Shown in pieces: positions 3,495 through 47,890 of a DNA stretch of 64,000 nt. The stretch's first letter is position 1, and each line of letters starts with the position of its first letter. Both the position numbers and the translations under genes were made by a program. Below the pieces are notes generated by a model. That model was not told the origin of the DNA. It made no database searches and saw only the letters and a list, made by a program, of their open reading frames with translations. The DNA lies in contig JBCCCR010000019.1 in NCBI GenBank assembly GCA_039033415.1, positions 1-64,000 on the forward strand, given 5' to 3'. The DNA is from Pseudomonadota bacterium (GTDB taxonomy: Bacteria; Pseudomonadota; Gammaproteobacteria; Xanthomonadales; SZUA-38).

Positions 3495-3510
3495 AGTTTT
3501 AAACAGTTTA

Positions 3511-3537
3511 ACGATCGTACGAATGATAGAGTATCAT
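3511..3537. promoter_or_regulatory. Palindromic operator/promoter region of the ArsR gene
   Basis: ATGATA-GAG-TATCAT (3523-3537) is a perfect 6-3-6 inverted repeat, and ACGATCGT (3511-3518) is a second palindrome nearer the start codon. Read on the minus strand the former includes TATGAT, a possible -10 box. An ArsR-family operator overlapping its own promoter is the expected arrangement. Confidence 0.45.
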
Positions 3538-3540
3538 AGC

Positions 3541-3857
3541 CCGGCGATAACGCAACGCATTTTTTAGCCCGTCAGGCAAGAGCATGCACCGGCTAAGCGG
3601 TCGGCTTTACCAGGTCCCGTTGGGTGCTGAGGGTTGACCATAGCCTGACACCAGAACCCCTTTTTGAAATCCCCAAGCAGTCGACCCATAATCGAGGCAG
3701 CAGCCGGCTCTCCGAGCTGTTCCTTGGTTAAGCAAGGAACTCTCCGGGGTTACCCCGGGGGTAAGATCAAAGCACGACATTTCATTGCCGGTACGGTCAC
3801 TGCGCTCCGCGCAGAGTTGCACCGGAGCTACGAGACGGGTCGGAGACCGGTTGCTTC
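3541..3857 (+). ncRNA. Candidate retron msr-msd leader
   Basis: This non-coding stretch directly ahead of the reverse transcriptase is unusually rich in perfect hairpins: GTCAGGC (3571-3577) with GCCTGAC (3643-3649) closing a 65-base domain; GTTCCTTG (3719-3726) with CAAGGAAC (3733-3740), loop GTTAAG; CCGGGG (3744-3749) with CCCCGG (3753-3758), loop TTA; and CTGCGC (3800-3805) with GCGCAG (3809-3814), loop TCC, itself flanked by CCGGT/ACCGG. Retron RTs are normally preceded by their template RNA, so this is the expected msr-msd place. I could not identify convincing a1/a2 complementary ends or the branching guanosine, so boundaries are only those of the gap. Confidence 0.4.
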
Positions 3858-5168: not shown

Positions 5169-5229
5169 CGCGGACCTCTTGACCCAAAGGCACTGGTCGA
5201 TGCTTCAGCTTGACGGGTATCCTGTTCAC

Positions 5230-7029: not shown

Positions 7030-8692
7030 CCTCAAAACGCGGATGGCCCTCCAGTCCGTGCTCGATGGTAAAGCTGGCGTTCACCTCTAGACCCTCATAG
7101 TCGCGGGCCACCAGCTCGATTTCCACCGTGCCGCTTGTCGCCGCCGGCGGGCGCATTGTGAAGGTCTGATTGTGCCGGTCGAAGCGAACCCAGCGCGGGA
7201 GAGTGCCGCCGCCGGCCAGCCGGGCCTGGTAATCGAGCGTGTCGCCGGGATCCGGATCCATAAAGTAGCCGTCGGAGATGCTGAACATGAGCATCTGGCC
7301 AGCCGGGACGTAAACATTCGGCAGCGGCGCCACAATCTTTGGCGGCAGGTTCTTCATCCGCTGGCGAATTTCCTCGCGGTGCTGACGGCGGATGCTGAGC
7401 GCGGCCCAGAGCGCCACGCCGCCCAACGCGAACGCCAGCACAAAAAAGGCGGTGATCGACAGGTTGAGCTGGTCGATCAGCAAAAATACCAGCACCGCCA
7501 CCAGGCCGTCGCCGGCCCGGAAAAAGAAGGTGTCGATCGTGGTTTTTCCGACGTACTTCTGTTCCCGGTTCAGCGGCAGATAGAGCGCCTGATTGGCCGT
7601 ATTCTGGATGGAGTAGCTGACCGCGTTTTCCGCAATCTGCAGCCCCCGAACGAGAAAGAAGCCTGGGATCAGGAGCAGTATGCCCCAGTGCAGAATCACA
7701 AAAGCGGGCAGGATCAGCACCACGGCACGGATGCCGATCGCCCGCATCAGCCGCGAGACCACCAACAGCTGCAGCACCATGGAACTCAGCGTCACCCAGG
7801 CGTAGTAGTCACCCCAGAAGCGCCCCAGGTACTGAACTTCCGTGAGTCCAGCGCCGGCGGCCATCGCTTCGGCCCGCTCGTCGACGAGGTAAGACAACAC
7901 AAACTCGCCAACCGTATTGACCATCGTCAGCGTCATGACAAGGATTGCCAGGGCGACCAGGTACCGACTCTTGAAGACCACGTCGAAGCCGCCGACGAGG
8001 TCGGCCAGCGCAAAACGCTGGGACTCGGGCTGCTCGCGGTTGTTGTTCTCCGAGCCCTCCGGCACGCAGCGCTCGGCCAAGATGGACAGGATCATCGGCA
8101 GCGCGAGCACGCCAGCGGCGAGCAGCATGAGCCCATATTCGCCCACCACGGCAAAAAGGTATTTGGAGGTTTGACTGCCCAGCCAGCTACCGATGGATGC
8201 ACCGACCATGATGACAACAAACAGTCGCTGTCCGCTGCGGGTGTTATAGAGGTCCGCCGCAAATGCCCAAAACTGTGCAACAACCGTCACGTTGAAGATG
8301 CTCAGCCAAACGTAAAACGGCACGCTGATTGAAATCCCGCCGCGGCCCAGCAGGCAGAACACGAGCAGGTTTGAGATGAAAAACGCTGTCACCCAACGAA
8401 GCACGAGGGATCGGCTTTTTTTGTTGGACAGCCCCGCGTAGAGCTGCTTGTACAGCGGCAGCAAAAACGCCAGCGTCACGGCCACAATTCCCTGCGCGTA
8501 GGCTTTGATCTCCGCACTGCCTTCCGCAAGAATCAGGGCGTCTCGCACGGGCTTCAGGATGTAATATGAGCCCATCAGCACCAGGGCCGTGAGGAACAGG
8601 TGCTTGACGCTACGCCCCTCTCCCGGGCGCACAGACGTAAATAAGGTCAGGAAACGCTCAAAGAACGTCAGCCGGGCCAAGTCTACCCGCAT
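7013..8692 (-). CDS. Npt1/Npt2-like MFS transporter with C-terminal cadherin-like domain
   Basis: A 559-residue membrane protein. Residues about 30-435 contain some 11-12 hydrophobic helices with the start SVKHLFLTALVLMGSYYILKPVRDALIL, typical of the Npt1/Npt2 (nucleotide-transporter-like) branch of the major facilitator superfamily found in many free-living bacteria with unknown substrate. After a basic linker (RRQHREEIRQRMKNLPPK), residues about 455-559 form a beta-rich soluble domain with DGYFMDPDPGDTLDYQARL and PRWVRFDRHNQTFTMRPP, resembling the dystroglycan-type cadherin-like (CADG/He_PIG) fold of surface proteins. That fusion to a transporter is unusual. The gene is convergent with, and overlaps, the phosphatase gene. 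Confidence 0.8.
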   Translation of the reverse strand: MRVDLARLTFFERFLTLFTSVRPGEGRSVKHLFLTALVLMGSYYILKPVRDALILAEGSAEIKAYAQGIVAVTLAFLLPLYKQLYAGLSNKKSRSLVLRWVTAFFISNLLVFCLLGRGGISISVPFYVWLSIFNVTVVAQFWAFAADLYNTRSGQRLFVVIMVGASIGSWLGSQTSKYLFAVVGEYGLMLLAAGVLALPMILSILAERCVPEGSENNNREQPESQRFALADLVGGFDVVFKSRYLVALAILVMTLTMVNTVGEFVLSYLVDERAEAMAAGAGLTEVQYLGRFWGDYYAWVTLSSMVLQLLVVSRLMRAIGIRAVVLILPAFVILHWGILLLIPGFFLVRGLQIAENAVSYSIQNTANQALYLPLNREQKYVGKTTIDTFFFRAGDGLVAVLVFLLIDQLNLSITAFFVLAFALGGVALWAALSIRRQHREEIRQRMKNLPPKIVAPLPNVYVPAGQMLMFSISDGYFMDPDPGDTLDYQARLAGGGTLPRWVRFDRHNQTFTMRPPAATSGTVEIELVARDYEGLEVNASFTIEHGLEGHPRFEVSAPA

Positions 8693-34512: not shown

Positions 34513-35496
34513 TTAGGAATCTGTCAGATCGAAGACCACTTTGCCGAGGGCTCTACGGCCGCTGATGTCGGCAAAAGCCGTGGCATAGTCCGTTAGCGGA
34601 TAGCTGGCAGAGATTCGCGGTTTTAGCTTGCCCTCCGCCACCATGTCCGCCATCAGCCGCAGATTGCGGATCTGCTCCTGTGGCTGGCGGCTGGCCCAGG
34701 TACCCCACCAAACGCCGGTGATCGACCCCTCCTTGAGAAGTGTGAGGTTCGCCGGGAACTGGGGAATCTCTCCGCTGGCAAAGCCAACCACCAGATAGGT
34801 GCCCTGCCAGGCCAGGGCTTTCAGCGAAGGCACGGCCAGGTCGCCGCCGACCGGATCCAAGACCACATCAACACCCCGGCCGGCTGTCAGTACCTTCAGT
34901 TCCTCGCGCAGCGAGACCTGACTGTAGTCGATGGTCTCATCCGCACCGCAGCGCTCGGCGAAGTTCAGCTTGTCGGCGGAGCTGGCGGCGGCAATCACCT
35001 GAGCCCCACGCGCTTTGGCCAGCTCGATGGCGGCACTTCCGACACCGCCAGCAGCCCCCAAAACGAGCACGAGCTGGCCCTCTTTTACATCGGCCAGGTC
35101 ATAAAGGCCGTGGCACGCGGTACTGTAGGTGATCAGAAAACTCGCCGCTTCCGCGTCGCTGAGCTGGTCGGGCGTCGGCGCCACCTCCCGTTCCTTGACC
35201 ACAATGTATTCGGCAAACATGCCATGCGTGGCGGTGACCATCACGCGCTGACCGGTCGCTACGGCACTGACGCCCGCACCCACTGCTTCGACCGTACCGG
35301 CCGCCTCCAGACCCGGGATAAACGGCGGCGGGATGTTGACCTGGTACTGCCCGCTAACAAATAGCAGGTCGGGAAAGTTCAGCGCGGCGGCGTTGACCTT
35401 GATCAGCACCTCTCCCAGGCCGGGTTCGGGGGTCGCCAGCTCCGTTAGCTTCAGCGACTCGGGTGGCCCGTAGGCCTCGCAGAGCAACGCTCTCAT
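34513..35496 (-). CDS. NADPH:quinone oxidoreductase-like MDR family protein
   Basis: A 327-residue zinc-free medium-chain reductase. The N-terminal GroES-like half has PPESLKLTELATPEPGLGEVLIKV and FIPGLEAAGTVEAVGAGV; the Rossmann half has the NADPH motif LVLGAAGGVGSAAIELAKARGA. The catalytic zinc ligands of alcohol dehydrogenases are absent. Family members reduce quinones or enoyl (including enoyl-CoA) double bonds. The gene overlaps the upstream cysteine hydrolase by four bases and is the last of a thiolase-hydrolase-reductase operon, which hints at a role in acyl-CoA catabolism rather than quinone detoxification. Confidence 0.88.
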   Translation of the reverse strand: MRALLCEAYGPPESLKLTELATPEPGLGEVLIKVNAAALNFPDLLFVSGQYQVNIPPPFIPGLEAAGTVEAVGAGVSAVATGQRVMVTATHGMFAEYIVVKEREVAPTPDQLSDAEAASFLITYSTACHGLYDLADVKEGQLVLVLGAAGGVGSAAIELAKARGAQVIAAASSADKLNFAERCGADETIDYSQVSLREELKVLTAGRGVDVVLDPVGGDLAVPSLKALAWQGTYLVVGFASGEIPQFPANLTLLKEGSITGVWWGTWASRQPQEQIRNLRLMADMVAEGKLKPRISASYPLTDYATAFADISGRRALGKVVFDLTDS

Positions 35497-36122
35497 CGAG
35501 CCAGGCCCGCCAGGTATTCGGTGACCTGCGCCTCAGAAACCACGTCCGCGTACTTGGCGTTCATGTCAAAGAGATTGGCCTGGTGCGGATCGTCATGTCG
35601 GTCGCCGCAGGCGTCAGCGACGACAATCGGTATGAAGCCATACGAGCAGGCGTCGATGCAGGTTGCCCGGATGCAGCCGCTCGTGGTGAGACCGGTAATG
35701 ATCAGACTATCGATGTTGGCGGCCGTCAGCGTCGAGGACAGCGACGTGCCAAAAAACGCGCTCGGATACTGTTTGGTTACCACCAGCTCATCGGGTGCCG
35801 GGTCGAGGCCGGCCGGCCACGCGCCCATCGGATTTCCGCGGATCATGTTGTGCAGCGGTTTGGCCTTGCGAAAGAAAACGCCGCCGTTTAATCCGTCGGC
35901 GTCATAAACCACGTTGGTATACATCACCGGAACACCGGCCCTCCGCGCCACTTCGCGGATGCGTAGCGCGCTGTCGAGCTCCGCCTGAACGTCGGCAAAG
36001 AGTTCGCAGTCGGGTTCGAAATAGGCCTGCACAAAATCGATCAGGATCAGCGCCGGCCGCTCACCGTAGCCGAGCTGATTGTCGTAGGCCTTCTTATAGT
36101 TTTCCGCGAGATTGTCCGTCAT
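35493..36122 (-). CDS. Isochorismatase-like cysteine hydrolase
   Basis: A 209-residue alpha/beta hydrolase of the cysteine-hydrolase (N-carbamoylsarcosine amidase/isochorismatase) family. The catalytic triad is visible: Asp29 (ALILIDFVQ), Lys117 (LVVTKQYPSAF) and Cys150 (GLTTSGCIRAT), with the conserved cis-peptide neighbourhood before the Cys. Sequence is nearest to the carbamoylsarcosine/maleamate amidase branch, which releases ammonia from amides. The ATG at 36122 was chosen because the upstream in-frame extension overlaps the thiolase gene and has no family character. It sits between a thiolase and an MDR reductase. Confidence 0.88.
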   Translation of the reverse strand: MTDNLAENYKKAYDNQLGYGERPALILIDFVQAYFEPDCELFADVQAELDSALRIREVARRAGVPVMYTNVVYDADGLNGGVFFRKAKPLHNMIRGNPMGAWPAGLDPAPDELVVTKQYPSAFFGTSLSSTLTAANIDSLIITGLTTSGCIRATCIDACSYGFIPIVVADACGDRHDDPHQANLFDMNAKYADVVSEAQVTEYLAGLAR

Positions 36123-36160
36123 GGATCGATCCTTTTCTGGTCGGATTGTACTGAGTGACT

Positions 36161-37375
36161 TCAGGCGGCTTCGAGCACCAGGGCAATACCCTGGCCGACG
36201 CCGATGCACATGGTGCAAAGTGCGTAGCGACCGCCCGTGGCCTGAAGTTGACGCGCCGCGGTGGTGACCAGTCGGGCACCGGACATCCCGAGCGGGTGTC
36301 CCAGCGCAATGGCGCCGCCCCAGCGGTTCACGTGCTCCGCGTCGTCCGGCAGTCCCAGGGCCCGCAGCACGGCGAGGCCCTGCGCGGCAAACGCTTCGTT
36401 GAGTTCGACGACATCCACGTCAGACACGCTGAGTCCCGCGAGCTTCAGCGCTTTGCGAGACGCTTCGATAGGACCCACCCCCATAATGCGCGGCGCAAGG
36501 CCCGTGCTGGCCGCGGACACCACCCGGGCCATCACCTTCAGCCCCTGCGCCTCGGCGCCCTCCGCGGAGGCCAGCAGCAGTGCACAGGCACCGTCATTGA
36601 TGCCCGACGCGTTGCCCGCGGTAATGCTGCCGTCCGCGCGAACAAACGGCTTCAGCCGGTTGAGCGCCGCCAGATCGGTATCGGGCCTGGGATGCTCGTC
36701 GGTATCCACAACCACCGGCTCTCCCCGCCGCTGCGGAATGGTGACGGTGCAGATTTCGCCGGCCAGGTGCCCGGCGCTGATCGCAGCCCCGGCTTTCTGC
36801 TGGCTGCGTAGCGCAAACTGATCCTGATCCTCGCGGCTGATCTTGAAGTCGTCCGCGACGTTTTCGGCGGTCTCCGCCATGGAGTCCACCCCATACTGAT
36901 CTTTCAGCCGTCGATTGATGAATCGCCAGCCCAAGGTGGTGTCGAACATCTGCTGGCCGCGATCAAAAGGCGCCGTCGCTTTGCCGAGCACCATCGGAGA
37001 TCGGGACATCGACTCCACCCCGGCCGCGATACCGAGCTCGATCATGCCGCACTGAATCGACTGGGCGATCATCGCGACCGCATTGAGCCCTGAGCCGCAC
37101 AGTCGATTCACCGTCACACCCGGGACTGACTCGGGCAGGCCCGCAAGCAGGGTCGCCATCCGGGCAACGTTGCGATTGTCCTCGCCGGCCTGATTGGCGC
37201 AGCCCATGATCACGTCTTCGACCGCGGCGGGATCCAGGCTGGGGTTGCGTTCCAGCAGCGCCGCGAGTGGTACGGCGGCCAGGTCGTCGGTGCGCACGGT
37301 GGACAGCGCGCCGCCGTAACGGCCTATGGGGGTTCGGATGGCGTCACAGACAAATGCGTCTCTCGGTGCGTTCAC
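36161..37375 (-). CDS. Thiolase (3-oxoadipyl-CoA thiolase-like acetyl-CoA acyltransferase)
   Basis: A 404-residue degradative thiolase. Catalytic residues are Cys93 (NRLCGSGLNAV), His360 (GHPLGMSG) and Cys390 (CTMCIGVGQG). The start AFVCDAIRTPIGRYGGALSTVRTDDL and the block ESMSRSPMVLGK are strongly reminiscent of PcaF/PaaJ, the beta-ketoadipyl-CoA thiolase of aromatic catabolism, which cleaves 3-oxoadipyl-CoA to succinyl-CoA and acetyl-CoA. Other long-chain substrates remain possible. It is first in a three-gene operon and divergent from a molybdenum hydroxylase pair. Confidence 0.9.
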   Translation of the reverse strand: MNAPRDAFVCDAIRTPIGRYGGALSTVRTDDLAAVPLAALLERNPSLDPAAVEDVIMGCANQAGEDNRNVARMATLLAGLPESVPGVTVNRLCGSGLNAVAMIAQSIQCGMIELGIAAGVESMSRSPMVLGKATAPFDRGQQMFDTTLGWRFINRRLKDQYGVDSMAETAENVADDFKISREDQDQFALRSQQKAGAAISAGHLAGEICTVTIPQRRGEPVVVDTDEHPRPDTDLAALNRLKPFVRADGSITAGNASGINDGACALLLASAEGAEAQGLKVMARVVSAASTGLAPRIMGVGPIEASRKALKLAGLSVSDVDVVELNEAFAAQGLAVLRALGLPDDAEHVNRWGGAIALGHPLGMSGARLVTTAARQLQATGGRYALCTMCIGVGQGIALVLEAA

Positions 37376-37504: not shown

Positions 37505-37975
37505 ATGACGATCGAATTCCAGTTGAACGGCAAAACGGTGCGCACCGACGCGCCGACCGACAAGCCCCTCCTGTGGGTGCTGCGCGAAGATCTCGGCTCG
37601 ACGGGCACAAAATTTGGGTGCGGAATTGCCCAATGTGGAGCGTGCACGATCCATCTTGACGGGTCACCAACCCGCAGCTGCGTGCTGCCCATCGCTGCGG
37701 TGGCTGGACGCAGCGTTACCACGGTTGAGGGTGTCGACTCGAAAGCCGCCATGGCGGTTCGCAAGGCCTGGCGCGAGCTGGACGTGGTCCAGTGCGGGTA
37801 CTGCCAGAGCGGCCAGATGATGTCGGCCAGCGCGCTGCTGGAGGGCAACCCGGCCCCGACGGACGACGAGATTGACGCCGCCATGGGCGGGAATCTCTGC
37901 CGCTGCGCCACCTACCACCGCATTCGGGCCGCCATTCATCAGGCTGCCGAAGACTTGAATGGAGAAAGCGCATGA
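37505..37975 (+). CDS. [2Fe-2S] small subunit of molybdenum hydroxylase (isoquinoline 1-oxidoreductase alpha-like)
   Basis: A 156-residue iron-sulfur subunit of the xanthine dehydrogenase family. The plant-ferredoxin-type cluster is bound by Cys residues in GCGIAQCGACTIHLDG and a later Cys; the second cluster by CGYCQSGQMM and CRCATY. It transfers electrons from the molybdopterin subunit encoded just downstream, whose start overlaps its stop by four bases. A GAGG ribosome site precedes the ATG. There is no FAD subunit nearby, as in the IorAB and aldehyde-oxidoreductase types. Confidence 0.93.
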   Translation: MTIEFQLNGKTVRTDAPTDKPLLWVLREDLGSTGTKFGCGIAQCGACTIHLDGSPTRSCVLPIAAVAGRSVTTVEGVDSKAAMAVRKAWRELDVVQCGYCQSGQMMSASALLEGNPAPTDDEIDAAMGGNLCRCATYHRIRAAIHQAAEDLNGESA

Positions 37976-40185
37976 GCCGGTTTATGGACAAGAAGTCAGT
38001 CGGACAGGGCGGCTCAGGCCTGAATCGACGCAGGTTCCTCCAGGTGAGCGCCCTGGGCGGTGCGGGTTTTCTGATCGGCTGCAGCGAATCGGATACCGCG
38101 GCGCCGGCGGCCCAGACCGAGGCCGCAGCGCCCTTGCCGGCGGCAATCGACGCCGAGCTCAACGCTTTTGTCAAAATCCAGGCTGACAACACCGTCACGG
38201 TGGTCGTCAAACACCTCGACAAGGGTCAGGGCGTGACCACCGGACTGCCCGCCATTGTGGCCGAGGAGCTCGACGCCAGCTGGTCTCAGATGCGCACCGA
38301 GTTTGCGCCGGCTGACGCCAACCGTTACGCCAACCTTGCGTTTGGTGTTGTCCAGGGGACGGGAGGGTCAACCTCAATCGCCAACTCCTGGGAGCAGCTC
38401 CGCCTGGCCGCCGCCGGCGCACGCGCTATGTTGGTGCAGGCCGCCGCTGAGCAGTGGGGCGTTGCCGCCGACACCATCGCCGTCGCTGATGGTCGGGTCA
38501 CCAGCGGTGATCAATCCGCCAGCTTTGGCGAATTGGCGGGCCTCGCCGCGGCACAGACACCGCCCGAGCGACCCGCACTGAAGGACCGATCCGAGTTCAA
38601 GCTGCTAGGGACTAACCTGCCGCGGCTAGATTCGGCCGACAAGACCGACGGCAGCACCGAATTCACGATCGACGTGAAACGACCCGGCATGCTGATGGCG
38701 GTAGTCGCCAGGCCCCCGCGCTTCGGCGGCAAGGTAGCGTCCTTCGACGCCAGCAAGGCGCTGGAGGTGCCGGGCGTTGCGCGAGTGGTCGAGATTCCGC
38801 GCGGCGTTGCCGTGCTGGCCGACAGCTACTTCACCGCCAACAAGGCGCGAGGCATGCTGGAGGTTGAGTGGAACTTCGATGACGCCGAAAACCGAAGCTC
38901 CTCAGAGCTGGAAGCTGACTTTACGGCCATGATGGATCAGCCGGGGCTGGAAGCCCGCAACGACGGTGATGCGCCGGCGGCCCTGGGTTCGGCCGCGCAG
39001 ACTATCGAGCAGGAGTTCCACTTCCCGTTCCTGGCGCATGCCACGATGGAACCGATGGACTGTGTGGTTGAGCTTGCGTCCGATGGCTGTGAAATCTGGA
39101 CCGCCTCTCAGATTCCGACGCTGGACGTCGGAACCACCGCGGCGATCACCGGCCTGGACCCGTCCAGCATTAAGATCCACACCCGCTTCGCCGGCGGCAG
39201 TTTTGGGCGCCGCGCTGTGCCCGACAGCGATTTTGTGGCCGAAGCGGTGATGATCGCCAAGGCCATCGACGGTGAGGCCCCGGTCAAGCTGCTGTGGTCG
39301 CGCGAGGATGACATGGCCGCTGGCCGCTATCGGCCGATGGCCGTCCACCGGGTGCGCGCCGGTCTCGACGAAGACGGCAAGATCAGCGCCTGGCACCATC
39401 AAGTTGCGAGCCCGTCGATCCTGAGCGGCACCGCTTTTGCCGCCATGATGACCAGCGAGCTCGACCCTTCGGTCGTCGAAGGCACCACCGATCTTCCCTA
39501 CGCGATCCCCAACGTTCGCGTAGACGGCTACCAGCCTCAGACCGGTGTGCCGGTACTGTGGTGGCGGTCGGTTGGTCACACGCACAACGCCTATGCGGTT
39601 GAGGTGTTCTTTGACCAGCTTGCCAGGACCATGGGCCGCGATCCGTACGAGCTGCGCAAAGAGCTGCTGACGGAGCATCCGCGTCATCTGGCGGTGCTGA
39701 ACAAGGCCGCAGAGGAAGCGGGCTGGGGCACCGATCTCGGGCCTGGTCGAGGCCGAGGCATTGCGGTTCACGAGTCGTTTAACTCGTTTGTCGCTGAGGT
39801 GATTGAGGTGACGATGGCTGAAGGCGGCAATTTCTCCATTGACCGGGTGGTTTGCGCGGTGGACTGCGGCTTTGCGTTGACCCCGGATGTCGTTAAGGCG
39901 CAGATGGAAGGCGGAATTGGGTATGGACTGTCCTCTGCACTGCGCGAAGCCATCACCCTGACCAACGGTGAGGTCGATCAGAAAAACTTCGATCGCTACC
40001 GTCCGCTGCGAATCAGCGAGATGCCGAAGATTGAGGTGCACATCGTGAACTCCGGCGAGCCGCCGACGGGCGTGGGTGAGCCGGGTACGCCGCCTTCCGC
40101 GCCGGCGCTGGCTAACGCCATTGCGGACGCCACGGGCCGCTCGATCTCGCGGCTGCCGATCGCCGATCAGCTGAAGACCGCTTAA
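37972..40185 (+). CDS. Molybdopterin large subunit, Tat-exported (isoquinoline 1-oxidoreductase beta-like)
   Basis: A 737-residue molybdenum hydroxylase large subunit with an N-terminal twin-arginine signal (LNRRRFLQVSALGG, Arg19-Arg21) that ends in GFLIGC, so it may also be a lipoprotein. Family motifs include VVVKHLDKGQGVTTGLPAIV, the Mo-cofactor loop FAGGSFGRRAVPDSDF and the catalytic Glu in GVGEPGTPPSAPAL. The IorB branch hydroxylates N-heteroaromatic rings or aldehydes using water and passes electrons to a cytochrome or quinone partner. No cytochrome subunit is encoded next to it. The true substrate is unknown. Confidence 0.9.
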   Translation: MSRFMDKKSVGQGGSGLNRRRFLQVSALGGAGFLIGCSESDTAAPAAQTEAAAPLPAAIDAELNAFVKIQADNTVTVVVKHLDKGQGVTTGLPAIVAEELDASWSQMRTEFAPADANRYANLAFGVVQGTGGSTSIANSWEQLRLAAAGARAMLVQAAAEQWGVAADTIAVADGRVTSGDQSASFGELAGLAAAQTPPERPALKDRSEFKLLGTNLPRLDSADKTDGSTEFTIDVKRPGMLMAVVARPPRFGGKVASFDASKALEVPGVARVVEIPRGVAVLADSYFTANKARGMLEVEWNFDDAENRSSSELEADFTAMMDQPGLEARNDGDAPAALGSAAQTIEQEFHFPFLAHATMEPMDCVVELASDGCEIWTASQIPTLDVGTTAAITGLDPSSIKIHTRFAGGSFGRRAVPDSDFVAEAVMIAKAIDGEAPVKLLWSREDDMAAGRYRPMAVHRVRAGLDEDGKISAWHHQVASPSILSGTAFAAMMTSELDPSVVEGTTDLPYAIPNVRVDGYQPQTGVPVLWWRSVGHTHNAYAVEVFFDQLARTMGRDPYELRKELLTEHPRHLAVLNKAAEEAGWGTDLGPGRGRGIAVHESFNSFVAEVIEVTMAEGGNFSIDRVVCAVDCGFALTPDVVKAQMEGGIGYGLSSALREAITLTNGEVDQKNFDRYRPLRISEMPKIEVHIVNSGEPPTGVGEPGTPPSAPALANAIADATGRSISRLPIADQLKTA

Positions 40186-40205
40186 TCTGAATCGTTGACC
40201 GACAC

Positions 40206-40233
40206 GGAGCCACCTTCCCGCGAAGGTGGCTCC
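40206..40233. terminator. Strong terminator hairpin
   Basis: GGAGCCACCTTC (40206-40217) and GAAGGTGGCTCC (40222-40233) form a perfect 12-bp stem with a CCGC loop, followed by GGCCTTTCCTT. It lies between convergent genes and probably terminates both directions. Confidence 0.85.
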
Positions 40234-40269
40234 GGCCTTTCCTTCGCCGGTCGCCTACGCGCAGGGCCC

Positions 40270-41916
40270 TTACTCCTCCGCTGAAGGCTTCGACGACTCC
40301 AAGCTAATCTTCCCGTTCAGCTGGTCCCGGCGCGCGGCATCAGGATCGCGCAGCGCCGGATCACCTCGGCCGCCGCCGCCGGCGGTTTCCAGCACAAATA
40401 CGCCGCCGGCTGGAATCAGGCTGCGGCCCATGCCGCTGAGGGTATCACCCCCTCGAATATACGTGCGGGCGCCGTCGCCGTCGCCGCCACCGTCGCGTCC
40501 GCGCGGCGGATGCACAATTCGATCAAACATCCTCGATACGACAAACGGCTCGGCATCGCGGTGGCAGAATTCCATCACCTGCCCCAGACCGCCTCGGAAT
40601 TGACCTGAGCCACCCGAATCTGGCCTGAACTCCTTGCGCAGGATCAGCAGCGGCGAGGTGGTTTCGGTGATCTCGACCGGCGTTGAGCGAACGCCGGAGG
40701 GAAACGCGGTACAGGAAAGTCCGTCTTTGGACGGCCGCGCGCCGCTGCCGCCGGTGTAGAAGGCGTTGATGACAAACGGCTCTGACGAGCTCCCGGAAAC
40801 GACGCCGCGCCCGCCCATAAACACCGGGCCAAACAGGCACGATGCGCCTTCCGCCGGCACCTGTCCCTGGAGCGGTTGCTGCAGGCAGCCCAGCACAACA
40901 TCGGGCAGCATCTGGCCGACGGCATGGCGCGCCGACACGGCGCTCGGCCGTTCGGCGTGCAGAATGCACCCGGCGGGCGCCGTAACCTCCACCTGCCCGA
41001 GGCTGCCGGCGTTGTTCGGGATGTCGTTGCCGACAACGCAGCGCACGCCGAACGACGCATAGGCCTGGGTGTAGGTCAGCGGCACGTTGATTCCGCGACC
41101 CGACGCCGGCGAGGTTCCCGCGAAGTCGACCCGGATCCGTCCGTCAGCGATCGTGACCTCGCAGGCGAGGGTCACCGGTTCGTCGTAGCCGTCCACGGTC
41201 ATGGTGTAGCGCCAGCTGGCTTCGGGCAGCGCCCGTATTTCGGCTTCCATCGCCCGGGCCGAGCGCTCGACGATGATGTCTGCGAGCGCCTGGAGGGACG
41301 TCAGGCCAAACTCGTCCAGGGTGGCGAGAAGCGCCTGGGATGCGCTGAAGTTGCAGGCGGTCAGCGAATACAGGTCACCCTCTGCCGCTCGCGGGTCTCG
41401 GACGTTGGCGCGCAGGATTTTCAGCAGCGTTTCGTTGGGCTCACCGCGGGCAAACAGGCGGCTGATCGGTATATTGAGCCCCTCCTCAAACACCTGCCGA
41501 CCGTCCGGGCCGAAGCCGAGACCGCCGACATCAGCAATATGGGAGGTTGCGGCGATCAGTGCGATGAGCGTGTCGTCCCGAAATACGGGCGTCACAACCG
41601 TAAAGTCGTTGAGGTGCCCGGTGCCGTGCCACGGATCGTTGGTCAGCAGCACGTCCCCGGGTTCCAGCTGGGCGGCCGGCAGATGTTTGAGGAACTCACC
41701 GACGCTGCTCGCCATCGCGTTGACGTGTCCCGGCGTGCCGGTCACGGCCTGGGCCAGCATCCGGCCGTCTGCGTCGAAGATGCCCGCGGACAGGTCGCCG
41801 GCTTCCCGAACCGTCGTGGAAAACGCGGTACGCATCAGCGTTTGTGCCTGTTCTTCCACGATGGCCAGCAGCCGGTCCCAGAGTATCTGGAGGGTGATCG
41901 GATCCATGTCAGGCAC
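40270..41916 (-). CDS. Hydantoinase B/oxoprolinase-family subunit
   Basis: A 548-residue HyuB-family protein. It starts DPITLQILWDRLLAIVEEQA, with the conserved VLLTNDPWHGTGHLNDFTVV block and a C-terminal GGRGVVSGSSSEPFVINAF region. HyuB subunits act with HyuA in ATP-dependent hydrolysis of cyclic amides (5-oxoproline, N-methylhydantoin) or, in acetone/acetophenone carboxylases, in carboxylation. It overlaps hyuA by eight bases. The last gene of a six-gene operon with a nitrile hydratase-like enzyme, it may act on the amide that enzyme makes. Confidence 0.9.
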   Translation of the reverse strand: MPDMDPITLQILWDRLLAIVEEQAQTLMRTAFSTTVREAGDLSAGIFDADGRMLAQAVTGTPGHVNAMASSVGEFLKHLPAAQLEPGDVLLTNDPWHGTGHLNDFTVVTPVFRDDTLIALIAATSHIADVGGLGFGPDGRQVFEEGLNIPISRLFARGEPNETLLKILRANVRDPRAAEGDLYSLTACNFSASQALLATLDEFGLTSLQALADIIVERSARAMEAEIRALPEASWRYTMTVDGYDEPVTLACEVTIADGRIRVDFAGTSPASGRGINVPLTYTQAYASFGVRCVVGNDIPNNAGSLGQVEVTAPAGCILHAERPSAVSARHAVGQMLPDVVLGCLQQPLQGQVPAEGASCLFGPVFMGGRGVVSGSSSEPFVINAFYTGGSGARPSKDGLSCTAFPSGVRSTPVEITETTSPLLILRKEFRPDSGGSGQFRGGLGQVMEFCHRDAEPFVVSRMFDRIVHPPRGRDGGGDGDGARTYIRGGDTLSGMGRSLIPAGGVFVLETAGGGGRGDPALRDPDAARRDQLNGKISLESSKPSAEE

Positions 41917-43984
41917 CGTTGTCCCGCGTGATCACAAGATTGCCGTCAGGATCGACCTCGAGTGAGCAGCCCGACGGCACAACCGTTGTGGTCTGGTCTT
42001 CGGTGATCAGGGCGGGTCCGTCCAGCTGACTGCCGACAGGCAACGTCTGACGGTTGATCACGCGCGCCTCCACCGATTGCCCGTCTTCGGCTACCGAACA
42101 TGTCACCACCTCGTCCGGAGAACCGTCGGACGTCGTCGCGGCGGCCGAAACTTCGCTTGGCGCCGGCCCGCTGAGGGCGAGCGTCAGGCTGAGCAACTCG
42201 ATGTCGACGCCGTCGATTGTTCTTCCGTAAAGCTGTTCGTAAGCGCGTTCGAAAGCGCCGGAAAAGTGCTCCGCGGCGCTCGCGTCGTAGACTTCGACGG
42301 GCAACACAATCGGCAGCTCGTGCCCTTGGCCCGCGTAGCGCATATAGCCCTGGCGCTGCTCGGTCAGCGGCTCGCCGCCCGCGGCGGGTGCCAGGACCGC
42401 CTCGGCCTCGGCGCGCATGTCGCTGAAGAGCCGGTTGACCGTGGACGGATCCAGCTGGCTGACCGTCATCGGCCGGCTTCGCACCACTTCAAAACTCAGT
42501 CGAGCCAGGAGAAACCCGACCGCTGACCCAACCCCGGCCTGGGGCGGGATGATCACGCGGTTGACGCCCAGGCGCCGGGCCAGACTGGCCGCGTGAAGCG
42601 GGGCCGCGCCCCCAAAGGCCACCATGTCGCGCTGACGAAGATCGAGCCCAAACTCCGCGGCATGGGCCCGAGCCGCTGCCGCCATACTCTCTTCCACCAC
42701 ATCGCTGATGCCCTGCGCCGCCTGGCCAACGGCCAACGCCAGCGGGCTGGCAATGTGTTTGCCGATGGCGGCCGCGGCGGCCTCACCGTTCAGGCTCAGC
42801 GCGCCGCCCGCAAATCGTTCGGGGCGAATCTTGCCGAGGGTCACGTCAGCGTCGGTGACCGTCGGCGAGGTGCCACCTCGTCCGTAGGCCGCCGGCCCCG
42901 GTTCCGAGCCCGCGCTGCGGGGGCCCACGCGCAGCCGCTCCAGCTTGTCGACATGGGCGATCGATCCGCCTCCCGCCCCGATCTCCACCATCTCAATGAC
43001 CGGGATTCGCAGCGGCAGCCCGCTGCCTTTCTTGAATCGATAGCTGCGGTCGACCTCAAAGCTGCGGGACACGAGTGGCTTGCGTTGATCGATCAGGCAG
43101 AGCTTGGCCGTGGTGCCGCCCATATCAAACGACAGCACCCGATCTGCCTGACAGCCGCCGGCGACGCTGGCCGCCAGGATTGCGCCGCCGGCGGGCCCCG
43201 ACTCCACCAGCCGGATCGGGAAACGCGCGGCGGTGTCGAGGTCCGTCAGCCCGCCGCCGGAGGTCATCAGCAGGAACGGACAGTGGACGTCCAGTGCCTC
43301 CAGGCCGTCTTCGAGCCGCCGGAGGTAGCTGTCCATCAGCGGCTGGACGTAAGCGTTCGCGCAGGCTGTGGACAGCCGTTCGTACTCCCGAATCTCCGGA
43401 CACACTTCGCTGGACAGCGTGATGGCGAGGTCGGGTCGCAGCTTTGAAATCAGCTCAGCGCAGCGCTGTTCGTGACTCGGATCCCGGTAGCTGTGCAGCA
43501 AGCCGACGGCGATGCTCTGAACCCCGTATTCGTCCAGGGATTGCAGGGCATCGGCAACGGACTGCGGATCGAGCGGCGTGTGGACGCGTCCATCGCTTAG
43601 GAGCCGTTCGGTTACCGGCCGGCGAAGATGGCGTGGCACCAGGGGTCGAGCCCGGTCGATGTTGATGTCGTACTGCTCGAACCGGTCTTCAAACGCCATT
43701 TCCACGGAGTCTCGGTGGCCGGCGGTCGTGAGCAGGGCTGTGGTCGCGCCGCGCCGCTCGATCAAGGCATTGGTGGCGAGGGTGGTGCCGTGGAGCACCA
43801 TGGAGAGATCCGCCGCAGGGATGCCGGCGCTGCCCAGGACACGTTCGATTCCCTCGAGCAGGGCCTGCTCCGGCTGGCTATGGGTGGTCAGCAGCTTGTC
43901 CGACCAGCGCTGTCCCTCGGCGTTTTGCAGCACCACATCGGTAAACGTGCCGCCAATGTCTACGGCAATTCTTGCGGCACCCAC
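41909..43984 (-). CDS. Hydantoinase A/oxoprolinase-family ATPase subunit
   Basis: A 691-residue HyuA-family protein with a GTG start. The actin-like ATP-binding motifs are visible: RIAVDIGGTFTDVVL at the N-terminus, MVLHGTTLATNALIERRGATTALLTT, and VLSFDMGGTTAKLCLID in the middle. It phosphorylates or activates the cyclic amide or carbonyl substrate for its HyuB partner. The pair is shorter than eukaryotic 5-oxoprolinase, which fuses both. It follows the nitrile hydratase alpha gene by 12 bases. Confidence 0.9.
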   Translation of the reverse strand: MGAARIAVDIGGTFTDVVLQNAEGQRWSDKLLTTHSQPEQALLEGIERVLGSAGIPAADLSMVLHGTTLATNALIERRGATTALLTTAGHRDSVEMAFEDRFEQYDINIDRARPLVPRHLRRPVTERLLSDGRVHTPLDPQSVADALQSLDEYGVQSIAVGLLHSYRDPSHEQRCAELISKLRPDLAITLSSEVCPEIREYERLSTACANAYVQPLMDSYLRRLEDGLEALDVHCPFLLMTSGGGLTDLDTAARFPIRLVESGPAGGAILAASVAGGCQADRVLSFDMGGTTAKLCLIDQRKPLVSRSFEVDRSYRFKKGSGLPLRIPVIEMVEIGAGGGSIAHVDKLERLRVGPRSAGSEPGPAAYGRGGTSPTVTDADVTLGKIRPERFAGGALSLNGEAAAAAIGKHIASPLALAVGQAAQGISDVVEESMAAAARAHAAEFGLDLRQRDMVAFGGAAPLHAASLARRLGVNRVIIPPQAGVGSAVGFLLARLSFEVVRSRPMTVSQLDPSTVNRLFSDMRAEAEAVLAPAAGGEPLTEQRQGYMRYAGQGHELPIVLPVEVYDASAAEHFSGAFERAYEQLYGRTIDGVDIELLSLTLALSGPAPSEVSAAATTSDGSPDEVVTCSVAEDGQSVEARVINRQTLPVGSQLDGPALITEDQTTTVVPSGCSLEVDPDGNLVITRDNGA

Positions 43985-43996
43985 CGGTCGAAAAGC

Positions 43997-44668
43997 CTAT
44001 GGCTCTAAGTCGTCGCCGGCGTCGATGCCGGCGGCCGGGAGCGTGCGCTGCGTGCCGATCAGCGAGTCTCGGGTCACCAGTGATCGTAGCTTGTCTTCCG
44101 ACCAACCTTCGGTGCCCGCAGGCCGCTGCGGCAGCACCATGTAGCGAAGCTCAGCCGTCGAGTCATGAACCCGGACCTGAATCTGGTCGTTCAGCTCGAC
44201 CCCAAACTCGGCCAGGACGGCCCTCGGTTCCCGAACCAATCTGGAACGATAGCTAAGGGATTTGTACCAGGAGGGTGACATACCCAGCAGCGCTCGCGGA
44301 TAGCAGGAGCAAAGGGTACACACGATCACGTTGTGCACCTGCGCGCTGTTTTCCATCACCGTAAACTCGGCGGGCTTCAGGTCGAAACCCAGTTCCGTGA
44401 TGGCTTCGCTGCCGTCCGTCAGCAGGCGCTCTTTGAACGCCGGGTCGGTCCAGGCCCGCGCCACCAGACGGGCGCCGTTGTCGGGTGATGCGCCCTGCAT
44501 CCGGCTGATCATCGCCGCCTCTTCGGCCCGGGTGTAGTGGCCTGCCTCGAGCAGCAGCTCCCTCAGGGCCAGCCCCACGCGCGCAGCGTCGCTCGTCGGC
44601 TCGGGATGGTCCGGTTGTAAGGTTTGATCATGGCCATGATCGTGGTCATGGTCGTGGTCGTGACCCAT
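43997..44668 (-). CDS. Nitrile hydratase alpha / thiocyanate hydrolase gamma-like subunit with His-rich N-terminus
   Basis: A 223-residue metal-bearing subunit. The claw-setting motif VCTLCSCYP (Cys117, Cys120, Ser121, Cys122) has Thr at the second position, the cobalt-type form. Downstream [19 protein letters not shown] is typical of the family, but YPRALLG replaces the common YPWPVLG. The N-terminus is a striking His-Asp repeat ([13 protein letters not shown]), a likely metal-loading tail. It catalyses hydration of a nitrile (to an amide) or of thiocyanate. Stop and start codons share one base with the preceding beta-C gene. No separate activator or cobalt chaperone is seen. Confidence 0.9.
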
Positions 44669-44973
44669 CAGGCGGGCTCCAGCCAGTGTTCGAAAACCTC
44701 AACTTCCAGCGTATCGTCGTCAGGTCCCCGGTAGCCCGGCCATAGCTGCGCCTGCGGAATGCAGATTCGATAGAGACGGGTTTCCGGCCGCCCATCACCC
44801 CGCACAAAAGTCTCGGGCTGCCCGTGGAGTCCGCAGACCCGCTCGACCGTACCCTCTTGCCCCTTTACATACCGGGGGACCCGATGATGAACACCCGGAT
44901 GGCGATCGTGAATGCGCACTCGCTGCCCTCGATGAAAGCGGGCCTGTGACTCGGTCGGCTGGACGTTACTCAT
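44668..44973 (-). CDS. Nitrile hydratase beta C-terminal-domain protein (thiocyanate hydrolase alpha-like)
   Basis: A 101-residue protein equal to the C-terminal SH3-like barrel of nitrile hydratase beta: [36 protein letters not shown], ending in [13 protein letters not shown]. In ordinary nitrile hydratases this is fused to the helical domain encoded here by the preceding gene. The motif position where family members have RYVRG reads RYVKG, so one of the two arginines that contact the claw in the Rhodococcus enzyme may be replaced by Lys. It overlaps the upstream gene by four bases. Confidence 0.88.
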
Positions 44974-45290
44974 GATGTCAGCGCCTGCCGCGCGGCGATC
45001 TCTGCCATCTTTTCCTCAAGCGCCGCCTGCGTGACCAAACCTTTGTCCAAAAGCGTGTAGGCCAGCGACTTGGCCCAGCGTTCGTAGTAGCTCAGGTTTT
45101 CGTAGTCGGCGGGACCTAAGTGTTCAATGCCGTCCCGAAGCTCCGCAAAATCGCTAATCAGCCCCTTGCCCAGCGCCAGCCGCACCATCGCGTCGACCTG
45201 CCATTCCCACCAGGCTGTGTCGTGTTCGCCTCGCTCAATCGGGCCGGCCTCGAGGCCGCCGACGTCATGCGGATCGCTCGGCTGGTTCAT
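44970..45290 (-). CDS. Nitrile hydratase beta N-terminal-domain protein (thiocyanate hydrolase beta-like)
   Basis: A 106-residue helical protein equal to the N-terminal half of nitrile hydratase beta: it begins with DVGGLE, then TAWWEWQVDAMVRLALGKGL, ELRDGIEHLGPADYENLSYYERW and LLDKGLVTQAALEEK. The Arg in ELRDGIE aligns with a claw-contacting Arg of the Rhodococcus beta subunit (by memory of that sequence). The gene order beta-N, beta-C, alpha is the same as scnB-scnA-scnC of thiocyanate hydrolase, and also recalls three-part enzymes such as ToyJKL. It overlaps the FAD oxidase gene by four bases. Confidence 0.86.
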   Translation of the reverse strand: MNQPSDPHDVGGLEAGPIERGEHDTAWWEWQVDAMVRLALGKGLISDFAELRDGIEHLGPADYENLSYYERWAKSLAYTLLDKGLVTQAALEEKMAEIAARQALTS

Positions 45291-46660
45291 GAGTCAACCA
45301 CTCTCCCCGGGTTAAGAATGTTTTTCGGGTCCATCGCCTGCTTCAGAGATTTCATCAGCGCAATTTCCGTCGGGCTGCGGCTCTGAGGCAGCCAGCGTTT
45401 TTTTAGCGTGCCAATCCCGTGTTCGGCGCTGACGCTTCCGTTGGCGGAGGCCGTGTGTCGGTAGACCACCGCCTCGATGCCCGCCTTGTCCTCCGCTCGC
45501 CCCGTCGAGGCGACCACGTGCAGATTGCCGTCGCCGATGTGGCCGAAAAGCAGGGTCCGGCAGCCGTCCAGCTCCTGCCCAAGATCGCGTTCAATGGCGC
45601 TGGCAACCCGGTCCATAGCTGCCAGGGGAATGCCCACGTCGAACACCGCCAGGTGCTCCATGGTAGGCATAATGTCGCCGATCGCGTCACGCAGCTCCCA
45701 CAAACGTCGACTGTCCGCCAGACTGCTGGCCAACACGCCGTCCGTGACCAGCTCCCGCTCCAGCGCCTGCTCAAAGCACCGTTCCAGATCGTCGCTGAGC
45801 GAGCTGTCATTGCTGCCCTCGGTTTGAATGAGCACGGAGAACGGCGCGGGTTCGGAAAGCGGATTCGGCTTGCCGGTGGCCCCAACCGCCACGTCAAAAT
45901 ATCCGCGCCACATCACCTCGAACGCCGACACTACCGGGAGCGTTTGGCCGCAGTGGCGCAGCAGCCTGATGACCGCAGGAAAATCAGCGCAGGCGCACAG
46001 GGCGGACGCGCTGGCGGGCTTGCTGGGGTTGAGTCTGAACGTAACTTGAGTGACCACGCCCAGCGTTCCCTCCGTGCCGATAAACAGCTGCTTGAGATCG
46101 TAGCCTGCGTTGTTCTTGAGCAGCTTGTTGTCGGCTTCGATGACGGTGCCGTCGGCAAGCACAGCCGTCAGCCCGAGGACGAGGGAACGCGTCATGCCGT
46201 GCTGAATCACCTGATTACCGCCAGCGTTGGTCGACACGATGCCGCCGGCCTGGCAGGAGCCTCGCGCGCCGAGGTCCATCGAGAACTCCAGTCCTTCAGC
46301 CGCGGCGGTGTCCTGGATGACCTGCAGCGGCATGCCGGCTCCGACGGTCATTGTCATACCCTCACGGTCGAACTCGACCAGCTGATTCATCAGCTCGAGC
46401 GACAGGCTGTGTTCGCCGGCTCTTGGCGTTGCGCCGCCGGCCAGTCCAGTCCGGCCTCCCTGGATGACAATTGGCTGGTCGTTGGCGTGACAGGCGGCAA
46501 GGATTTCGCTCACCTGCTTAGTGGTTTTCGGTCGAAATACCACTGCCGGCAGCACGGGATTGCTTCGAGTCCAGTCGCAGGCATATGCCTCGCCGACCGC
46601 ATCGCCGGTCAGGTAGATAGCGGGGTCGAGCGAATCAAGTACAGCGGATGAGGTTTGCAA
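45287..46660 (-). CDS. FAD-linked oxidase (GlcD/D-2-hydroxyacid dehydrogenase family)
   Basis: A 457-residue PCMH-type flavoprotein, TTG start. The FAD-binding block is IVIQGGRTGLAGGATPRAG, followed by DLGARGSCQAGGIVSTNAGG and the C-terminal GHIGDGNLHVVAST and NGSVSAEHGIGTLKK motifs. The family oxidises 2-hydroxyacids such as glycolate, D-lactate or D-2-hydroxyglutarate and passes electrons to an acceptor. It is the first gene of the operon with the split nitrile hydratase-like genes and hyuAB, all linked by overlaps, so it likely oxidises the hydroxyacid product or precursor in that pathway. Confidence 0.88.
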   Translation of the reverse strand: MQTSSAVLDSLDPAIYLTGDAVGEAYACDWTRSNPVLPAVVFRPKTTKQVSEILAACHANDQPIVIQGGRTGLAGGATPRAGEHSLSLELMNQLVEFDREGMTMTVGAGMPLQVIQDTAAAEGLEFSMDLGARGSCQAGGIVSTNAGGNQVIQHGMTRSLVLGLTAVLADGTVIEADNKLLKNNAGYDLKQLFIGTEGTLGVVTQVTFRLNPSKPASASALCACADFPAVIRLLRHCGQTLPVVSAFEVMWRGYFDVAVGATGKPNPLSEPAPFSVLIQTEGSNDSSLSDDLERCFEQALERELVTDGVLASSLADSRRLWELRDAIGDIMPTMEHLAVFDVGIPLAAMDRVASAIERDLGQELDGCRTLLFGHIGDGNLHVVASTGRAEDKAGIEAVVYRHTASANGSVSAEHGIGTLKKRWLPQSRSPTEIALMKSLKQAMDPKNILNPGRVVDS

Positions 46661-46708: not shown

Positions 46709-47890
46709 TCAGCAGAAATCCGGGGTCAGCTGCGCCGGCCGCAGCGCTCGTTCCAGGCTGACTCGGTTGCGGCCGTCGCGTTTCGATCGATACATGGCCC
46801 GATCAGCGCGCTGGAGCAGGTCGTCCATCGAGTGATCGTCTTCGCGCAGCGTGGCCACGCCAAAGCTGGCCGTGATGTGAAAAGGCTCCGGACGCCAGCC
46901 GATTTCGGTGCCGGCGAGATCTCGCCGGAGCAGCCGTGCGGTCTTCTCCGCCTGGGCGATGTCGGTATGCGGCAGCGCCAAGGCAAACTCCTCCCCCCCG
47001 ATCCGACCGAAGACCGCCCCTTCGCGCAGGCTCGCCTGCAGCACCTTCGCCAGCACGAGCAGCGCGCGATCGCCGGCGCTGTGACCATGCTGATCGTTGA
47101 CCTCTTTGAAGTTATCCACGTCGCAAATGATGACCGACAGAGGCTGATTGCCGCGCCGAGCGCGAGCGATCAGCGGGCTGCTTGTGGACTCGAAGCCCCG
47201 CCGATTCAAGATGCCCGTCATGGGATCGGTGTTAGCCAGGCTCTTCATCTGCATCGAGAGATCTGACGCCACGATCAGCACGGTAAACATGCCGCTGCCG
47301 ACGTAGCCCGCCGGCAGAATCAGAAAGTTGATCTGCCGGTAAATCTCGAGCCAGTGGGCGTCGGGCGTGGGTCCCTGCATCAGCGCCGCAACGCCGGCCA
47401 GAATCTGGGAAGCACCAAACAAGGCAAGAACGCTGGCGGCCGCTAACTCGACGTCTCTCGAGACGGCCTGCTGGCGGTAGATCAGCTGAGCGCATAACAA
47501 ACACAAAATGCCGGCGTAAGCTGGCCCGATAAACATCTGTATACCCACGTGCGGCTGCCCAAAGGTGAACCAGGCGAGCGAGAGCACGGTCGCGAAGCCC
47601 GTGAGCGCAAGCACATCCGCTCGCACCCAGCGTCCCGACCATAGGCGAAAGCCGGCCAGCGCTAGTGAAACGGTAAGCGCGCCAAGCGCCGATACAAGTA
47701 CCCAGTAAATCCGACGGTCGTCGAACAGGCTGTCAGCCAGCAGGTTCACGCCGTATTGAACGGCACCAGCGAGAAACGTGGCGGACCATACAAGGGTGTG
47801 GGTCTGGCGGCCAAAATTTTGCCAGGCCAGCAGGAACACCACGCTCAAAGTCAGGCTGCATAGCAGCAGGGCGATAATCAGATAAGTCAT
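46709..47890 (-). CDS. Membrane diguanylate cyclase (GGEEF)
   Basis: A 393-residue protein with about seven hydrophobic N-terminal helices (1-215), as in integral-membrane sensory cyclases, and a C-terminal GGDEF domain with DPMTGILNRRGFE, DVDNFKEVNDQHGHSAGD and active-site GGEEF. The RxxD inhibitory site is absent, so product feedback should not apply. It should make c-di-GMP in response to a membrane or small-ligand signal. It is transcribed away from the hybrid kinase upstream. Confidence 0.9.
   Translation of the reverse strand: MTYLIIALLLCSLTLSVVFLLAWQNFGRQTHTLVWSATFLAGAVQYGVNLLADSLFDDRRIYWVLVSALGALTVSLALAGFRLWSGRWVRADVLALTGFATVLSLAWFTFGQPHVGIQMFIGPAYAGILCLLCAQLIYRQQAVSRDVELAAASVLALFGASQILAGVAALMQGPTPDAHWLEIYRQINFLILPAGYVGSGMFTVLIVASDLSMQMKSLANTDPMTGILNRRGFESTSSPLIARARRGNQPLSVIICDVDNFKEVNDQHGHSAGDRALLVLAKVLQASLREGAVFGRIGGEEFALALPHTDIAQAEKTARLLRRDLAGTEIGWRPEPFHITASFGVATLREDDHSMDDLLQRADRAMYRSKRDGRNRVSLERALRPAQLTPDFC

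Follow-up and report, generated by a model that had tools for sequence, protein, structure and literature searches.

We analyzed a 64,000-nucleotide stretch of contig JBCCCR010000019.1 (the window) from a member of the Xanthomonadales (GenBank assembly GCA_039033415.1). On its minus strand, six tightly joined genes are predicted to encode a flavoenzyme that is linked to flavin adenine dinucleotide (FAD), a nitrile hydratase (NHase) in three pieces (betaN, betaC, and alpha, hereafter the trio), and HyuA and HyuB, the two subunits of a hydrolase that uses adenosine triphosphate (ATP) (Table 1). The first-pass annotation of this DNA had described six tightly joined genes: those for a 2-hydroxyacid flavoenzyme, for an NHase-like enzyme in three parts, and for HyuAB. 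This description stands: all six open reading frames are present, and Pfam confirms the family of each one. In operon order, the genes are joined by overlaps of 4 bases (flavoenzyme and betaN), 4 bases, and 1 base, then by a 12-base gap between alpha and HyuA, which is the only gap, and then by an overlap of 8 bases.

Table 1. Predicted features of the operon and of the rest of the window
Feature	Position	Strand	Basis and remarks
FAD-linked D-2-hydroxyacid dehydrogenase (GlcD/LDHD/D2HGDH superfamily)	45287-46660	-	TTG start; Pfam FAD_binding_4 and FAD-oxidase_C
NHase betaN (AnhD-like)	44970-45290	-	NHase_beta_N, 59.3 bits (cut-off 21.5)
NHase betaC (AnhE-like)	44668-44973	-	NHase_beta_C, 69.3 bits (cut-off 27.7)
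NHase alpha, cobalt-type VCTLCSC, His-rich N-terminus	43997-44668	-	NHase_alpha, 257.1 bits (cut-off 27.2)
HyuA, ATP-binding subunit of hydantoinase/oxoprolinase/caprolactamase-type hydrolase	41909-43984	-	GTG start; Pfam Hydant_A_N, Hydantoinase_A, Hydant_A_C
HyuB, metal-site subunit paired with HyuA	40270-41916	-	GTG start; Hydantoinase_B, 486.1 bits (cut-off 26.8)
Terminator-like hairpin where HyuB and the Mo-enzyme gene converge	40205-40234	.	13-pair stem, 9 of them G-C; consensus match only
GGDEF protein; its gene may be a seventh one in the same transcript	46709-47890	-	Pfam GGDEF; 48 bases upstream of the flavoenzyme gene
Two-subunit [2Fe-2S]/molybdopterin oxidoreductase	37505-40185	+	Start of large subunit resembles a twin-arginine signal by eye
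Isochorismatase-fold hydrolase	35493-36218	-	Best solved match N-carbamoylsarcosine amidohydrolase, 157.5 bits
Reverse transcriptase, YADD motif	3858-5168	+	PADLOC RT_other, 474.5 bits; RT_outgroup, retron, 451.9 bits

We infer that the six genes are co-transcribed. The transcription unit may exceed six genes, because the spacing between the GGDEF gene and the flavoenzyme gene is the same in a second species. Between positions 40100 and 48400, we found no sigma-70-like promoter, and there are 9 terminator-like sites, as compared to 5.3 in shuffled sequences.

This second species (G001) belongs to the same genus and has all six genes intact, in the same order and with the same flanks. The proteins of the two species are 81 to 89% identical; the border between HyuA and HyuB differs through the start codon that was chosen by the ORF finder. 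The ratio of nonsynonymous to synonymous divergence (dN/dS, by the Nei-Gojobori method) is 0.075 for betaC, 0.077 for the flavoenzyme, 0.090 for alpha, 0.093 for betaN, 0.108 for HyuB, and 0.132 for HyuA, with dS of 0.71 to 1.54 across the operon; for seven neighboring genes, dN/dS is 0.041 to 0.107. Thus, the operon is real and is under purifying selection, and its proteins evolve somewhat faster than most of their neighbors. Because the order is kept and dN/dS is low, the operon is more than chance: judging from the sequences, this is a true operon, carried by one genus of Gammaproteobacteria.

We then looked for the genes in other genomes. Among 61 genomes (the window's own and its relatives, with only two from the genus and four from the family), alpha was found in three, counting the window's own. 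The third is from a sister genus in the same family (G003) and has betaN-betaC-alpha with neither the flavoenzyme nor HyuAB nearby. G003 does contain an orthologue of HyuA (62% identical; its other copies are at most 38% identical), which is on a different contig from the trio and adjoins HyuB, a nitroreductase, a Glu/Leu/Phe/Val-type dehydrogenase, and a beta-eliminating lyase. A contig scan with two narrow patterns gave eight loci, two of which were those of G001 and G003. The other six (L007 to L012) belong to the same clade of trios (73 to 77% identity), and they too have neither the flavoenzyme nor HyuAB nearby. Three of these six (L008, L009, and L011) have a neighborhood in common: an amidohydrolase gene (72 to 94% identical among the three) lies directly before betaN, with a 4-base overlap in L009, and a deacetylase-like hydrolase (76 to 97%) lies downstream. 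The trio thus recurs in surroundings of a second kind, and its coupling to a C-N hydrolase occurs outside the window's genus as well. The neighborhoods in L007, L010, L012, and G003 differ from it.

We also scanned more widely. In the class, 24 of 369 genomes had a match (the window's own included), and we examined 20 of the 25 places outside that genome, leaving out four very weak matches and G383. Eight of these 20 loci are thiocyanate hydrolases; homologues of HyuA are near two of the 20 (on the opposite strand at one of them), and the flavoenzyme is near none. In the phylum, 58 of 398 genomes had a match (again including the window's own), and of the 60 places, we examined 40: HyuA is in one neighborhood, a FAD-like gene is in two others, and both are in none. 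Ten annotated plasmid regions did not contain such a set either (two plasmid records, L064 and L070, carry no annotation). Some contigs end near the gene, as at L008 and at nine other loci that we noted, so missing neighbors are weaker evidence there.

The trio itself would be a cobalt NHase with a divided beta subunit, for which two separate genes stand ahead of alpha. In translation, alpha carries VCTLCSC, which is a cobalt-type motif, and its best matches in the PDB are alpha chains of cobalt-type NHases. On model scores, alpha falls nearer the NHase cut-off (246.2 against 249.85 bits) than the one for thiocyanate hydrolase (207.6 against 291.45). betaN carries ELRDGIE and betaC carries RVPRY (the RxPRY segment), as aligned to the beta chains of solved cobalt NHases; in such enzymes, the arginines of these segments contact the modified cysteines. 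We built a tree of 73 alpha sequences with a quick method and with support from the Shimodaira-Hasegawa-like approximate likelihood ratio test (SH-aLRT) only; 26 of its 70 inner branches are weak, and two rows are long. A branch with 99% support separates 44 rows, all but one of them alpha-first, from 29 rows: 18 with betaN-betaC-alpha, three with betaC-alpha-betaN, and eight thiocyanate hydrolases. In the exception among the 44 (L062, a long row), alpha is preceded by a fused beta. The window and eight relatives form a clade of nine rows, and the thiocyanate hydrolases form a single clade (both with 100% support). Thus, motif, fold, and tree all point to an NHase-like enzyme.

Alpha-first cobalt NHases, with fused or split beta, share their fold family and metal motif with the window's enzyme, but they lie across the 99% branch, and they have a P14K-type activator. 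To compare activator genes across loci, we built a P14K-like profile from six activators and a P15K-like profile from five proteins that adjoin thiocyanate hydrolases; a gene was called an activator if it scored at least 45 bits and shared its strand with alpha at a distance of no more than 3.5 kb. Of the alpha-first-branch loci that were not used in the model, 38 of 39 have a P14K-like gene (22 of 23 with a fused beta, 8 of 8 with one beta half unmatched, 7 of 7 with a split beta, and L062), and the window has none. A P15K-like gene is present at all eight thiocyanate hydrolase loci: five of these were in the model, and the three outside it are also positive. Neither kind of gene was called at any of the 19 betaN-betaC-alpha loci or at any of the three betaC-alpha-betaN loci (0 of 22); the sub-threshold scores at these loci (25 bits or less) fall on a piece of beta. 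Two plasmid loci, L172 and L173, were included here only once their annotation was known; without them, the counts are 37 of 38 and 0 of 21. The rows are related, and nine of the 19 are in one clade, so the pattern lies on a few branches and does not represent 22 independent events.

The P14K-like profile has no match in the window's genome, and the P15K-like profile, which was run on loci, matched only betaN itself in the window. PF21006 has a single match in the window's genome, which is betaN, and one match in each of seven other trio-only genomes; in six genomes, a second match adjoins the first. Two thiocyanate hydrolase genomes (G183 and G114) also have one match each, which indicates that PF21006 is blind to P15K and explains the need for a profile of its own. 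A split beta is not by itself linked to the absence of an activator, as the split alpha-betaN-betaC loci keep theirs. One of these is L173, on a plasmid of Gloeocapsopsis dulcis, where an alpha-betaN-betaC NHase (3359-5026) is followed by an annotated accessory protein.

There is a precedent for an NHase of this kind. According to the available part of PMC7329996, Streptomyces canus CGMCC 13662 has the order anhD-anhE-anhA without an activator gene, and AnhD acts as a metal and subunit-swapping chaperone. The window resembles this system in its betaN-betaC-alpha order, its cobalt-type motif, and its lack of an activator gene, but the window's trio is preceded by the flavoenzyme and followed by HyuAB; the likeness is by description. 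On the comparison of loci, the window's hydratase falls in a recognizable branch that has no detectable activator gene. The activator pattern is in line with this one biochemical case, and activator-free maturation, which was shown for the Streptomyces enzyme, would extend to the whole branch. We saw no statement to that effect in the available part of PMC7329996, and we made no dedicated search for one.

We also considered whether the His-rich N-terminus of alpha might be a cobalt tail that is special to the activator-free branch. We rejected this idea, since the rows of the activator-free branch (21) and those of the P14K type (45) have the same median of 5 histidines (p = 0.54 by a Mann-Whitney test; a single row of the 75 was left out for want of a usable start). 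Three-piece NHases on plasmids of Microvirga, Agrobacterium, and Streptomyces (L071, L072, and L172) adjoin genes for a Ni/Co transporter, CbtA/CbtB, or an aquaporin; L172, from Streptomyces sp. NBC_01176, is a betaN-betaC-alpha trio with an aquaporin and a Ni/Co transporter alongside. On plasmid p1 of Planktothrix agardhii (L069), a betaN-betaC-alpha trio (5042-8227) lies directly after asnB, in a stretch that also has a TauD-type dioxygenase, a methyltransferase, and a pyridoxal phosphate enzyme and that resembles a small biosynthetic cluster.

HyuAB is probably an ATP-dependent cyclic-amide hydrolase of the hydantoinase/oxoprolinase/caprolactamase type, and this assignment is well supported. 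Its best solved relatives are, for HyuA, N-methylhydantoinase (372.2 bits) and the caprolactamase subunit CapA (PDB 6yra; 357.5 bits). The available part of PMC8453981 gives the ATP motifs DxGGTxTD, DMGGT, and GxxPGP and the CapB ligands D41, H99, D101, and H124. The translation of HyuA contains DIGGTFTD, DMGGT, and GSEPGP, and D41, H99, and H124 of CapB align with D41, H101, and H126 of HyuB. For the fourth ligand, there is a numbering mismatch: position 101 in the printed CapB chain is leucine, and the next residue, an aspartate, aligns with D104 of HyuB. Thus, HyuAB resembles CapAB, N-methylhydantoinase (PDB 7hk5), and IaaCE in its architecture, its ATP motifs, and three metal ligands, but it scores below the cut-off of 1000 bits for both caprolactamase models (489.5 for CapA, NF050156, and 150.4 for CapB, NF050157). 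The window's genome has four HyuA matches. The genome behind L012 (G427, about 6 Mb) has 35, as compared to 0 to 5 in each of eight other genomes that were searched alongside it.

The best PDB match of the flavoenzyme is human D2HGDH (274.8 bits). The flavoenzyme shares the FAD fold and the metal- and glycolate-binding residues (R386, H434, H441, E475, and H476 in human numbering) with D2HGDH and LDHD (PDB 6lpn and 8jdc). However, all four residues that bind the C5 carboxyl group in human D2HGDH are replaced (T390G, K401V, Y432F, and N443V). The available parts of PMC7801405 and PMC10589216 tie these positions to substrate choice. With glycine, valine, phenylalanine, and valine at these positions, the predicted substrate is a D-2-hydroxyacid with a hydrophobic side chain, and D-2-hydroxyglutarate can be set aside on the active-site residues. 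A structure predicted from the single sequence had a mean predicted local distance difference test score of 40.8 and was not used.

Taken together, these assignments suggest an operon that was built around a three-piece, activator-free NHase, which was joined by the flavoenzyme and HyuAB and acts together with them; we rate this reading as evenly balanced. Alpha would load cobalt and oxidize the cysteines of CTLCSC, with the free betaN both making up one half of beta and acting as a chaperone, and the assembled trio would hydrate a nitrile to an amide. The flavoenzyme would oxidize D-2-hydroxyacids with hydrophobic side chains to 2-oxoacids, HyuAB would use ATP to open a cyclic amide (a lactam or a hydantoin), and an amidase elsewhere in the genome might do the final amide hydrolysis. 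The trio would be the older resident, with the flavoenzyme added upstream and HyuAB added downstream in this genus. Fpg lies on the same strand as the trio both in the window (about 7 kb away) and in G003 (about 9 kb away); this points to an ancestral location for the trio.

Several observations weigh against this reading. First, we saw all six genes together in no more than two species, both from the same genus, and the flavoenzyme and HyuAB were not found together beside an NHase in any of 67 NHase-superfamily neighborhoods outside the genus. The recurrence of the gene order, which the first-pass annotation had proposed as a check, is therefore confined to the second species. Second, in the sister genus, HyuAB and the trio are separate, and no orthologue of the flavoenzyme was found in G003 (best match, 35%). 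Together with the restriction to one genus, this makes a single pathway less likely. Third, no amidase is among the operon genes. Fourth, alpha is not certified as an NHase by TIGR01323: it scores 246.2 bits and misses the cut-off of 249.85 by 3.6 bits. We also scored five relatives that lie outside the thiocyanate hydrolase clade: three exceed the cut-off (250.3, 255.4, and 257.0) and two miss it (242.7 and 235.5), and both of those that miss belong to the window's own clade. Fifth, in three genomes (G442, G553, and G272), a trio coexists with an alpha-first NHase that has its own P14K-like gene, and these trios could make use of that activator.

The most economical reading of the sequences is that the enzymes would cooperate on nitrile-, amide-, and hydroxyacid-type compounds. 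A single pathway for all six genes is a reasonable but unproven reading, and its order and substrates would be a guess; the joining of the trio to another hydrolase in the lineage of L008, L009, and L011 helps it slightly. The first-pass annotation had suggested that the genes could form one pathway: the three enzyme classes are well supported, but the suggestion is weakened by the occurrence of the order in one genus only and by the separate modules in G003. It had also been aware of no described pathway with this set, and none turned up in the open-licence literature. There, we found nothing on an NHase with an oxoprolinase; an NHase with a hydantoinase appeared only in biocatalysis reviews, judging by title, and nothing was left when thiocyanate hydrolase was added. 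Less strict searches also yielded nothing on the set among the matches listed (12 of 137 in one case).

We weighed several other readings. It is unlikely, although a serious contender, that the set is a chance assembly, in which co-transcribed modules act on unrelated substrates and the NHase just happens to be flanked by two other catabolic modules. In all seven of the clade's loci outside the genus, the trio stays together while its neighbors differ from the window's, and only L008, L009, and L011 of these seven have a neighborhood in common. HyuAB also has other neighbors in G003, and four annotated plasmid relatives of HyuAB adjoin transporters, aminotransferases, a racemase, or a kynureninase. 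However, the joins at the borders of the modules (the overlap of the flavoenzyme gene with betaN and the 12-base gap between alpha and HyuA) have been kept at a dS of about 0.7 to 1.5, under purifying selection.

Ring cleavage seems quite improbable: the Mo/[2Fe-2S] oxidoreductase would make a lactam from an N-heterocycle, HyuAB would open it, and the isochorismatase-fold amidase and a PcaF-type thiolase would finish the degradation. The genes are adjacent in the second species too, the score of the thiolase is above the pcaF cut-off, and the best solved match of the amidase is N-carbamoylsarcosine amidohydrolase (Table 1). Relatives of HyuAB open lactams, N-methylhydantoin, and, by proposal, 2-oxoindoleacetate (available part of PMC8453981). 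However, the Mo pair is on the opposite strand, and the other genes lie beyond it and the terminator-like hairpin, which makes them separate transcription units; none of these genes was labeled in the 19 kb around the HyuAB orthologue of G003.

We doubt strongly that the operon encodes a dedicated pathway in which cyanohydrins and aminonitriles would be hydrated by the self-maturing NHase, the resulting D-2-hydroxyacids would be oxidized by the flavoenzyme, and accompanying hydantoins would be opened by HyuAB. From general chemistry, such a pathway would be the catabolic counterpart of Strecker and Bucherer-Bergs chemistry and would start from the products of aldehyde, cyanide, and ammonia.

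In the pathway of the first-pass annotation, HyuAB would act directly on the amide from the NHase, either as an ATP-using amidase or after spontaneous cyclization. This fits the position of HyuAB directly downstream of the NHase, the lack of an amidase in the operon, and the amidohydrolase that is joined to the trio in the other lineage. It is nevertheless very unlikely: hydrolysis of plain amides does not require ATP, eight proteins with the amidase signature are encoded elsewhere in the genome (some of them probably housekeeping), and the order was not found outside the genus.

Finally, the suggestion that the trio might attack thiocyanate can be dropped as highly improbable: although thiocyanate hydrolase (PDB 2dd4) likewise has three separate subunits with the betaN-betaC-alpha gene order, and its gamma subunit is among the PDB matches of alpha (193.7 bits), the window's alpha scores just 207.6 bits on the gamma model TIGR03887 (cut-off 291.45; 387.7, 396.6, and 393.1 for three true thiocyanate hydrolases), lies outside their clade, and has no P15K-like gene beside it.

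In the creatinine/N-methylhydantoin pathway, N-carbamoylsarcosine amidohydrolase goes together with HyuAB. In the window, its relative, the isochorismatase-fold hydrolase, is about 4 kb from HyuAB, in another transcription unit; its gene is tightly packed together with one for a 3-oxoadipyl-CoA thiolase and with a gene that resembles zinc-type alcohol dehydrogenases and quinone reductases. Elsewhere, immediately after the reverse transcriptase, there is a metallophosphoesterase (5158-7029), for which a HipA-like match is below the cut-off.

Overall, if the activator-gene pattern holds, then the NHase superfamily has a branch in which a free half of the enzyme's beta subunit, and no separate activator, serves to make the oxidized cobalt site; a comparison of the branches would then reveal what the activator replaced. 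Such NHases would also be simpler to express for amide production or for the clean-up of nitriles. If the link of HyuAB and a D-2-hydroxyacid dehydrogenase to the NHase is functional, then it would be a new context for nitrile metabolism.

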